From the NCBI RefSeq assembly GCF_018873765.1, contig NC_057923.1, positions 19,191,913-19,255,912 of the forward strand: DNA of 64,000 nt, written 5' to 3'. Of this stretch, positions 59,996-64,000 are shown piece by piece (positions within the stretch are counted from its first letter, which is position 1; each line of letters opens with the position of its first letter). Position numbers and translations under genes: made by a program. The notes below the pieces were generated by a model, which made no database searches, was not told the DNA's origin, and saw only the letters and a program-made list of their open reading frames with translations. This stretch comes from Telopea speciosissima (taxonomy: Eukaryota; Streptophyta; Magnoliopsida; Proteales; Proteaceae).

Positions 59996-60362
59996 TGTTG
60001 AAGTATATATCAAGCACATAGCAAGCAGGCAATCTCGATCAGAATATTCCATTATTCTGATCGAGATTCCTCCTATGTCTCTTCTATTTGTGTTTTATAA
60101 TTAGGATTATAAAGTCCTAGTTTCTAATTTCTGTTTAGTTTCTATTTTCCTATTGCAACTAAGATTGCTAGTAGGGTTAGTCTCTGTTTTCCTTTTGTAA
60201 CTAGGATTCCTAATATGATTAGGAATTCCCCTTTGATCGTAATCTTTTCATATAAATAAAGGCTGTCAAGTTCGATTATTCTTGACAGCACTCCTCCCTT
60301 CTTCCACTTCTTCTCTTCTCTTCCTTTCTCGGTTCTGGTTGCTAAAGGGGCATTCTACTACA
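59996..60362 (+). repeat. 5' LTR of the Ty1/copia element
   Basis: This LTR is about 367 bp, begins TGTTGAAGTATATATC and ends TTCTACTACA just before the primer-binding site. A TATA-like ATATAAATAAAG lies at about 60,251. It contains a perfect hairpin with 16-bp arms (60,031-60,046 and 60,053-60,068). The left limit is inferred from the TG start because the partner LTR is outside the window. Confidence 0.65.
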
Positions 60363-63300
60363 TGGTATCAGAGCACAATCAGTAATTGATTGTTACTCTG
60401 CGATTCTGGTTTGAAGGTCTTTTCAGATTCTTCTTAAAGGAGTGCAGCACCCTATGCTGCATATTGATACACATTAAACCCTAGATGGTGTTTTCAATTG
60501 AAAACTAGGATCTATTTACTTATCTGCTATACATGATCGATTGGAGGCTATTCTTTTCAACCTGCGGTTCTTCTTGAAGATTATCTTTATATCCTAATTT
60601 GGATCCAGTCAGTGGATCATTGCTGCAGTTTGAAGATATTTTTGCTTCTTCTTCTCCAATACCCTAGCTAGGGTTTTCTTTCTCCAATCAATCCCTATTT
60701 TCTGGTGAAGAGAGTGGGTTCTGTTTCTTCTCTCCCAGAACAACACTCGGTTGTCTAATTTTGGTGCTTTTGGGTTGATAAACCTTTGGAAGGATTGTTC
60801 TCCATTGCCGGTTGTCTTATTTGGGTTCCTAAACCCTCATTCTGCTACTGTAAAGTGTGTTGCTGCTGCTATGCTACTATTTTAGGGTTCTAAAACCCTT
60901 TCTGCTACTGCTAAGAGTGTTACTGCTGTTCTGCTGCTATTTTAGGGTTTTCTAAACCCTCATTCTGCTGCTGTTTTAGGGTTTTTGAACCCTCATATTG
61001 TCCCTGCTGATAGTACTACTGCTTGTTTAGGTTTTTAAACCTAACATTGCTACTGTCGATTATATTGCTGGTGTTTTTGGGTTATTTCAAAACCTATGGC
61101 TGATCCTAAGCCACCTACGGACAATGTCCAAGTTCAGATCACTACTATTAAACTCTCCAGGGTTTCAAATTACCTATTATGGGCCCAGGCAGTGCAAGCT
61201 TACATTCATGCCAAGGGCGAACTGAAAAACATTACAAATGATCCTCCTCTTCGTGATCTTTAAGGATCCTACCACAATCATTGCTCATGATGAGTGTATG
61301 CGTGATCATTCTATTATCAAGATATGGTTATGGAACAATGTTGAACCTGCTATTGCTTCCAATGTGATGTTTCACTCACTTGCTAAGGATGTTTGGAATG
61401 ACTTGCGTGAAAGCTTCTCTCAAGAAAGGAATATCTCCCACATGTATGATCTCTATGAGAAACTCTTTACCTTTCAATAGGGGGATAAAAGTATAAAACC
61501 TTGAATGAATACTTTGTCAGCTATAAGGTCATGGTTGAAGAACTCCAGATACAACAACCTCTAACTACTAATCTGGAACAATTGAAACAACAAAGAGCTG
61601 AGTTCCATGTTGCAAAATTAATAGCTTGACTACTCCTGACTACCAGTCTGTGAAGAGTCAGTTACTCACATGGGAGAAGGTTCCTTCTCTCAATGAAGTG
61701 GTTTCTCGTATTAATCGTATGGCTTATCCATCCAAACCTGACAATACATCCAAGGACAACTCAACTTTTGTTGCTAATCATGGTCGAGGACGTGGTCGTG
61801 GCCTTGGCACTGGTGGACGAGGTGTAGGTTCTCAAACCATTAACAAGTCTTCTCGCTAGTGTTCTTATTGTGGCAAACCTAATCATACAGTGGATACCTA
61901 TTGGGCCATGGAAAACCTGATTGGGCGAATGAACTAGCCAATGTTGCCATTACTGACACTAATACTGAGAAATTTAATGGTGATAAGAATCAGAGTCCCA
62001 GTACTTCATCATCTGTATCTCAAGATGATTACAACTAGTTAGTCAAACCCCTTCAACAACTTGAAGCTGCAACTGCCTCTACCTGTACAACTACCTTAGC
62101 TTATAAAGGTAACTCTGCTTTTTATCCTTCTGCTACTTCATGGCTTATTGATTCGGGTGCTTCATGTCACATGACTGGTAAGTCAAGTTTGTTCTCTTCA
62201 ATAAATCAAGTTTAAACCCCTTCCAATGTTATCCTTGCTGATGGGTCCTCTACTCAGGTGGCTGGTCATGGAACTGTTTCTCTAACATCCTCCATGACCT
62301 TCTCTCATGTTCTTCATGTTCCTAAATTACCTTTAAGTCTGTTAACTGTCAGTCAAATTACTAAATCTCTTAAATGATCAGTAACCTTCTATCCCTCTTA
62401 CTATGTTTTTCAAGACCTTCAGATAAGGAAGATGATTGGTGGAGGGCTTGAGCTTGATGGCTTATATTACTTGGATGGCACCGGACCTTCTACTGTAGCT
62501 ACGTCTACTACCACACCATCTCCTATGCAATGACATCTACGTCTTGGTCACCCATCTCTACCTAAACTCCAATTAATGGTTACCTAGTTGCAAATCTACA
62601 TCTCATCTTGAATATGAAGCCTGTGAATTAGGCAAACATCACCGTGCCTCCTTTCCTGCCCGTACTACACCTAGAAGTTCTTCATTGTTTTCTTTAGTTC
62701 ATTCTGACATTTGGGATCCGTGTCGAGTTTGTAATAGGTTAGGATTATCTTATTTTGTTAGTTTTATAGACGATTATTCCCGTTCCACTTGGGACTATAT
62801 GTTGAAGGATCAGACTCAATTTCTTACTATATTAAAAAATTTTATTAGCAAATAAAAACTCAGTTTGACATCTCCATAAAATTTTTTGGTCTGATATTGC
62901 TCTTGAGTACACTCAAATTGAGCTTTCTGACTTTGGTCTCACTTGTGATGTTATTCATCAAACTAGTTGCTCGTACACTCCACAACAAAATGGAGTGGCC
63001 GAACACAAAAATAGGCACTTATTGGAAGTAGTCCGATCCATTATGCTTCACATGAATCTCCCCAAACGTTTTTGGTATGATGCCGTCCTTACTTCTTGAT
63101 ACCTTATTAATCCTATGCCATCCTTTGTCTTACAAAATAAAATTCCCTTTTCTATGCTTTATCCCAATAGTTCTTTATTTACCTCTCCACCACGTGTTTT
63201 TGGTTGTGTCTGTTTTGTTCATATTCTTCATTCTGCCATTGATAAACTCTCTCCTGGGTTTATTAAATGCTTTTTTCTTGGTTACCCTCCCACTCAACAA

Positions 63301-63392
63301 AGGTATAAGTGTTTTGATCCGGTTTCTAATAAACAGTTTATGATTGCTGACGCCTCCTTTTTTTAAAATACTCCTTACTTCTATAGTTCGTC

Positions 63393-63706
63393 TGTTAAAT
63401 TATTTATCCACCCGTGTCCCCCTTTGGATAGTCTGCCGTGTTAGAGCTCCTGTATGATATTCATATTGTTTCCTCCTTATCCTACAAGGTCGGCCTTTTA
63501 GAGGAAGCGGTTTCTACATGGTATCAGTCTATCAGAGCAGGCAGGGGTCACGGTATCGAGTCCCCCTGGGAGCGGGCAGGTGTTAAATTATTTATCCACC
63601 CGTGTCCCCCTTTGGATAGTTCGCCGTGTTAGAGCTCCTGTATGATATACATATTGTTTCCTCCCTTTCCTACAAGGTTGGCCTTTTAGAGGAAGCGGTT
63701 TCTACA
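63393..63706 (+). mobile_element. Miniature LTR element (SMART/TRIM-like), structurally whole
   Basis: Two 126-bp direct repeats (63,393-63,518 and 63,581-63,706) both begin TGTTAAATTATTTATCC and end GCGGTTTCTACA, as LTRs do. The 62-bp space between them starts TGGTATCAG, the initiator tRNA-Met primer-binding motif, and ends in a purine-rich GGGAGCGGGCAGG right before the second repeat. Flanks TCGTC and TCTTC agree at four of five bases. Every structural part of an LTR retrotransposon is therefore present in 314 bp without coding capacity. The two repeats differ at only a few positions, so it is fairly young. Copia-like sequence resumes after it, so it inserted into the copia element. Confidence 0.8.
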
Positions 63707-64000
63707 TCTTCTATATCATCCACAATAAACAATTAAGTTCTAGGTCCACCCTTACCTGTTACCATACCCATTCCCTCACCTCCACTGGCTCAAGTCTCTC
63801 ACCGTCGTCGCCGTTGACCACCGACTTTACCAACCGTTACTACTTCTATACCAGCCTCCACTGTCCCGAGTCCCGACCACTGTTCCTGGTCCATCATACC
63901 CTGTTCCTACTGTTCTGGACATGCCATCTATTGCTGCAGATGCCGCTCCTCCCAACACTCAATCTGATTCTGATGCTGAGGTCTCCATCGACTTATCGGC

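Follow-up and report, generated by a model that had tools for sequence, protein, structure and literature searches.

A miniature LTR element inside a copia element of Telopea speciosissima and the joining of its family to foreign LTRs at the primer-binding site

The DNA analysed here, referred to as the window, is a stretch of 64,000 nucleotides of Telopea speciosissima (contig NC_057923.1, positions 19,191,913 to 19,255,912). It contains a decayed copia element whose 5' LTR is followed by the primer site TGGTATCAGAGC. Within this copia element lies a 314-bp stretch composed of two direct repeats with TG...CA ends and a 62-bp spacer between them (Table 1). The spacer starts with TGGTATCAG, a primer site which we take to be of the tRNA-Met type, and ends with the purine tract GGGAGCGGGCAGG. 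The longest ORF overlapping the 314-bp element has 64 aa and runs across LTR and interior, so the element has no coding capacity for its own movement. A first-pass annotation, made from the letters alone, had described two 126-bp repeats around 62 bp, a primer motif and a purine tract in the interior, and a location inside a copia element with nearly matching 5-bp flanks. The alignments agree with this description in each part: there are six differences between the repeats, 11 of the 13 tract bases are purines, and the flanks differ by one base.

Table 1. Features of the 314-bp element and its host copia element (positions in the window), and target-site duplications (TSDs) of chimeric copies elsewhere in the genome
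Feature	Position	Strand	Remark
Decayed host copia interior	60363..64000 (window end)	+	primer site follows the LTR, which ends at 60362; 63150-63392 has relatives in the genome
Left TSD copy, TCGTC	63388..63392	+	one change from TCTTC; six uninterrupted copia relatives read GTTCTTCTA at the site
5' LTR, 126 bp	63393..63518	+	6 differences from the 3' LTR
Primer-binding-site region	63519..63538	+	8 bases above the family norm
Motif GGTATCGAGTCC, called a B box at first	63552..63563	+	conserved, no more than its surroundings
Polypurine tract GGGAGCGGGCAGG	63568..63580	+	11/13 purines
3' LTR, 126 bp	63581..63706	+	6 differences from the 5' LTR
Right TSD copy, TCTTC	63707..63711	+	one mismatch to left TCGTC
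Chimera TSDs, 5'-side unit only			L131 CCAAC; L120 ACATC; L136 AAACA; L144 CCTCC
Chimera TSDs, unit in both LTRs			L105 GCTCC; L106 TGTAG
Chimera TSD, reciprocal			L061 AGAGG

The copia sequence to the left of the element (63150-63392) has at least 41 matches in its own genome, with 40 of 480 candidates scored. Six matches besides the window reach the last base of the query, and the downstream sequence has been fetched for these six. In all of them the copia sequence continues across the site without the element. Because six of six relatives are uninterrupted, the element is a true insertion with duplication of its target, and the empty site that the first-pass annotation had proposed to look for does exist. 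Judged by the flanking letters, the original target was most likely TCTTC, the left copy having changed once afterwards. The location within a copia element would also suit a tandem duplication within one copia family, with no element involved. However, the stretch is absent from all six copia relatives and the copies elsewhere have TSDs of their own, which makes a duplication of this kind vanishingly improbable.

The survey of the family covers one genome, that of the window. The whole 314-bp element gives at least 49 matches, with 40 of 679 candidates scored. The junction between LTR and primer site (31 nt, up to two mismatches) is present at 150 sites, and the 3' end of the LTR (27 nt, up to three mismatches) at 772 sites, solo and paired LTRs taken together; both reversed patterns give 0 sites. 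From 104 loci, 102 distinct LTR stretches have been obtained, of which 74 have two LTRs, seven have three, three have four, and one has five, while 17 single-LTR stretches were set aside. In the 85 stretches with at least two LTRs (two of them contributed by the locus L084), the 5-bp TSD is perfect in 44, has one mismatch in a further 13, and has more in 28. Shuffled pairing of the same 85 would be expected to give 0.7 perfect and 2.8 one-mismatch TSDs. The agreement between the two sides is 56–68 of 85 at each of the five positions; over three further positions, in which the comparison runs into the end bases of the LTRs, it is 24, 7, and 36 of 85. Copies with two or more LTRs are found on all of C1–C11, at unrelated sites. 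With copies spread beyond a single position in a single copia family and perfect TSDs in 44 of the 85, the early proposal of an independent element holds: the window stretch 63393-63706 is a miniature LTR element in its own right that was once mobile.

The features tested make this element a TRIM. TRIMs are below about 1000 bp and have two LTRs with TG...CA ends, and the window copy measures 314 bp in a family of about 306–312 bp. A primer-binding site (TGGTATCAG at 63519, of which TGGTATCAGAGC is the usual family form) and a polypurine tract are both present, and dispersed copies with 5-bp TSDs are found at the frequencies given above. In most copies the LTRs start with TGTT and end with ACA, and they exist in two forms of about 126 and 129 bp. 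The internal region, which contains hardly anything besides a primer-binding site and a purine tract, is exactly 54 bp in 94 of the 101 cases measured; the 62-bp interior first described is thus correct for the window copy but not as a length for the family. The divergence within LTR pairs has a median of K = 0.056 (0.008–0.19) in the 74 two-LTR copies and is 0.049 in the window copy. Perfect TSDs are found in six of the 11 TRIM stretches with three or more LTRs, which shows that a TRIM array can arrive as a single insertion.

Some loci of the family have features of their own. L011 (C1:23263354) carries a 1.1-kb insert in the TRIM interior; the ends of the insert, CTTAGTTAGTAAGT .. ACTTACTAACTAAG, are nearly inverted, like those of a DNA transposon. 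A palindrome of head-to-head TRIM LTR fragments lies beside the TRIM copy at L028 (C7:62640274). At four places in L064 (C11:33176549-33183077), the TRIM primer site continues for part of the interior and then gives way to other sequence; each place is preceded by an apparent antisense TRIM LTR piece.

The enlarged primer-site sequence, TGGTATCAGNNTATCAGAGC, occurs eight times genome-wide, and NN is only TC (five sites, window included) or AC (three sites). Several of the other TGGTATCAGNNTATCAGAGC sites resemble, by eye, the starts of other LTR elements (L107–L116), and the site in L115 is preceded by an LTR end nearly the same as in L125. A primer tRNA extended at its 3' end is unsupported as the source of the eight extra bases. 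The corresponding gene pattern gave 14 sites with up to one mismatch, eight of which are the TGGTATCAGNNTATCAGAGC primer-site sites on the opposite strand.

The first-pass annotation had also noted a B-box-like motif in the interior, GGTATCGAGTCC, which raises the question of a TRIM driven by Pol III through this motif, of the TRIMp3 type. The motif resembles a tRNA T-arm, and its columns are 86–100% conserved over 94 internal regions, the same as the rest of the interior. On the other hand, ARAGORN finds no tRNA in 60000-64000 (0 genes), and an Rfam search of 62900-64000 gives no match in the element, its only listed match lying outside with E 0.85, far below the gathering score. The tRNA- or 5S-derived LTR sequence that marks TRIMp3 and Helenus elements is thus not found here by either program. 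Moreover, in the available part of the description of TRIMp3 elements (PMC10886601), their promoter is in the LTR. The B-box assignment is therefore unsupported, and Pol III transcription from this motif is very improbable. An internal hairpin or packaging structure has also been considered and rejected: the 54-nt internal region folds at −13.9 kcal/mol, compared with a mean of −17.5 for 500 mononucleotide shuffles, 459 of which are at least as stable.

A different organization appears when the internal region is searched on its own. The internal 54-mer is present at 323 sites with up to three mismatches (control 0). Among the listed rows with 0–1 mismatch, 57, counted by hand, lie outside the earlier lists of element and junction matches; 20 of these sites have been fetched in list order, and three of the other 37 have been read within L061, L106, and L144. 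At 14 of the 20 fetched sites, a non-TRIM sequence ending in ACA abuts the primer site at its first base; the remaining six have a TRIM LTR there, in a sample that leans to foreign joins because known TRIM junctions had been excluded. The 12 bases before ACATGGTATCAGAGCAGGCAG have also been compared, using a pattern that requires ACA and bars C at the first place. It gives 174 sites, 100 of them listed. Classified by these 12 bases only, 66 of the listed sites are TRIM-like (up to four mismatches to the TRIM LTR end) and 34 are foreign (at least six), with none at five. The foreign sequence is joined exactly at the primer site in these 34 of 100 internal-region sites, and the 34 upstream 12-mers are 32 distinct sequences. 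In the downstream direction, the sequence past the junction of TRIM LTR and primer site has been read at 17 of 51 sites, with TRIM interior following in 13, other sequence in three, and an unclear outcome in one.

The 14 foreign-joined sites differ in how they continue. In five of them (L120, L122, L123, L131, and L136), the TRIM LTR is followed by a second primer site and another interior. Five others (L117, L124, L125, L132, and L133) have a truncated TRIM LTR, so the return does not always take place at a second primer site, and three (L129, L134, and L135) end in other flank. No match was obtained with L152, a guessed 5' partner for L134. The last site, L126 (C8:42099940-42100440), is joined to copia coding sequence and not to an LTR. 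There the coding sequence ends in GTACACA, the TRIM internal region and LTR follow, and the 3' flank starts with GTACA, which is possibly the insertion of an incomplete cDNA. The other 13 sites, together with L061, L082, L105, L106, and L144, make 18 chimeric loci. Their foreign LTRs fall into 12 clusters (at least 80% identity over at least 110 bp), or 11 without L061, whose foreign piece is too short for a safe cluster count. The LTR of the copia element that hosts the window copy is outside all 12 clusters. In L082 (C2:49875280-49877310), one copia-type LTR is followed by two consecutive TRIM units.

Whole chimeras have been read at several loci. L120, L131, and L136 have the same order: copia-type LTR, TRIM internal region, TRIM LTR, primer site, interior, and simple LTR. 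Their outer LTRs are 99.2% (250 bp), 96.5% (201 bp), and 93.6% (250 bp) identical, respectively, and the 5.6–5.8 kb downstream contain no TRIM sequence. In L144/L143, too, the unit is confined to the 5' side, and its TRIM LTR is truncated. L105 and L106 carry a composite LTR, that is an LTR with the TRIM unit, at both ends, and the two composite LTRs of L105 are 95.7% alike over 254 bp. L061 is the reciprocal case, in which a TRIM LTR and primer site are followed by a short foreign piece and then by the TRIM internal region and TRIM LTR. All seven chimeras with both ends read, four with the unit on the 5' side only, two with it in both LTRs, and the reciprocal one, have perfect 5-bp TSDs (Table 1).

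Copia-type Pfam domains are present in the interiors of L105, L138, L139, and L140. No Pfam match was found in the two ORFs of L106 that were searched, and the copia nature of L106 therefore rests on its LTR and primer site. For L122, no 3' LTR was found within 5.95 kb. Members of its copia family without the TRIM unit have LTR, primer site, and interior in direct succession (L145 and L148) or simple 3' ends (L146 and L147).

Since the TRIM encodes nothing, it must be copied by others, and the length of its target duplication together with the fusions points to copia elements as the copiers. Most likely, copia reverse transcriptase and integrase have been used. Late in reverse transcription, the end of the plus strand, made up of the LTR and a copy of the primer site, anneals to the primer site lying at the opposite end of the minus strand. 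TRIM and copia carry the same primer site, and the copia plus-strand end could pair with a TRIM minus strand instead; synthesis would then continue through the TRIM interior and LTR. A TRIM strand that still has its tRNA would provide a second copy of the primer site and allow a second transfer back to the copia strand. The product would consist of the copia LTR, the TRIM internal region and LTR, the primer site, and the copia interior, and its integration in one piece would give a one-sided chimera. In the next round of copying, everything from R to the primer site would be treated as U5. With the unit located in this interval of the copia element, ordinary copying would give it to both LTRs, which is the arrangement seen in L105 and L106. 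Transfer between two TRIM strands would give tandem arrays, and the truncated units may be returns at other short matches.

The insertion into copia, the family with its TSDs, the exact junctions, and the one-sided and two-sided chimeras are observed directly. From them we infer that the TRIM was copied in trans by copia and that growing cDNA sometimes passed between TRIM and copia at the shared primer site, a sequence of events that we regard as probable. Against it count the 28 of 85 copies with two or more TSD mismatches, the two L106 ORFs with no Pfam match, the 3' LTR of L122 not found in 5.95 kb, the five truncated TRIM LTRs, and the join of L126 to copia coding sequence; a route at the DNA level would also lead to an identical final map.

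The main rival is a capture at the DNA level, in which a TRIM circle with one LTR and the internal region would recombine with a resident copia element at the 12–15 bp homology of the primer site. This would give the same map as in L120, L131, and L136 with the copia TSDs intact, and PMC11899658, in its available portion, cites yeast as a case in which LTR-element DNA enters existing copies independently of integrase. However, recombination at a very short homology would be needed in many LTR clusters (18 loci, 12 clusters, L061 uncertain). It also fits poorly with L061, in which a TRIM insertion bounded by one TSD encloses foreign material, and with truncated units that return to copia sequence further downstream. 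Taken together, capture of a circle is unlikely.

Fusion by template switching is itself already known from Triticeae complexes (PMC1950507) and ONSEN (PMC5668417). In the complexes of Sabot and Schulman (2007, PMC1950507), two elements are fused during reverse transcription within one TSD pair. The chimeras and arrays described here show the same signs, with one TSD pair in seven of seven chimeras read at both ends and in six of 11 TRIM arrays, and with similar outer LTRs in L120, L131, L136, and L105. The Triticeae complexes join two members of one family by a proposed switch at R, whereas here a TRIM and unrelated LTRs are joined between LTR and primer site. A switch at R between co-packaged RNAs, as proposed in PMC1950507, would likewise account for several LTRs inside one TSD pair, but it predicts LTRs whose identity switches partway along. 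In the chimeras the foreign LTR is complete, and TRIM sequence starts with the first primer-site base. Because of this junction position, switching at R is disfavoured and appears quite improbable. The ONSEN recombinants (Sanchez et al. 2017, PMC5668417) are similar in that two co-packaged RNAs recombine during reverse transcription; in the part of that paper drawn on, they come from one family and are mostly explained by the first template switch, in R.

Other small LTR elements have been compared with the family by description, using the portions of the papers that were available. The TA-TRIMs (Gao et al. 2016, PMC4717578) are also small and noncoding, with two short LTRs, a PBS and PPT, and a 5-bp TSD, and they include arrays from L3I2 to L5I4 with TSDs. 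The family described here differs from them in its 54-bp interior and in that many of its units are joined to other LTRs at this site of priming; such fusion is not described for TRIMs in the available portion of PMC4717578. The window element resembles SMART in size and layout: FRetro129 (Gao et al. 2012, PMC3281118) has 292 bp in total, TGT..ACA ends, and a 5-bp TSD. It differs in its 85-bp LTRs and 122-bp interior, and it is reported there from grasses only. Helenus-1_SMo, a Selaginella TRIM (Kojima 2024, PMC10886601), has a 120-bp LTR, an 85-bp interior, and a 5-bp TSD, but its LTR has tRNA-derived sequence, of which none was found in the window element. The interior of 54 bp is thus shorter than those of FRetro129 and Helenus-1_SMo. 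By total length the window element is not the smallest, CcaRetroS9 being given as 233 bp in the same portion of PMC4717578.

Among titles and abstract openings, we have recognised no earlier report in which a TRIM is joined precisely at the primer site to many different LTRs, a scope that does not establish absence from print. According to the sections consulted, the 2016 survey (PMC4717578) found no coding relative for 278 of 289 TRIM subfamilies, and a 2021 wheat paper (PMC9744471) considers it difficult without experiments to assign the mobilising autonomous family to a non-autonomous one. The proposed SMART helper, FRetro64, is a Ty1-copia element that shares the SMART interior, as stated in the accessible part of PMC3281118. 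Chimeras formed during copying would name candidate TRIM helpers directly, in any assembled genome. The copia chimeras described here are likely to name helpers of this TRIM, and the copia-fused copies seem to preserve, in fossil form, a record of the larger elements that have copied it. The chimeras are also relevant to the origin of tandem LTR arrays, by recombination or in the course of retrotransposition, a question left open in the part of PMC11899658 consulted. Recombination between homologous LTRs is no easy explanation for the chimeras, because the joined LTRs are unlike each other.

More tentatively, the TRIM may spread in two ways, by insertions of its own and as a cassette, from primer site to primer site, that is added to the 5' LTR of a co-packaged copia element as an extended U5. 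This is a possibility that we hold as doubtful. If true, the chimeras would record the use of helpers directly, and the TRIM would need only a shared primer site and ends that can be read by the helper integrase. It would also explain how a TRIM with a 54-bp interior, and with LTRs that have no likeness to those of its helpers, has been able to persist.
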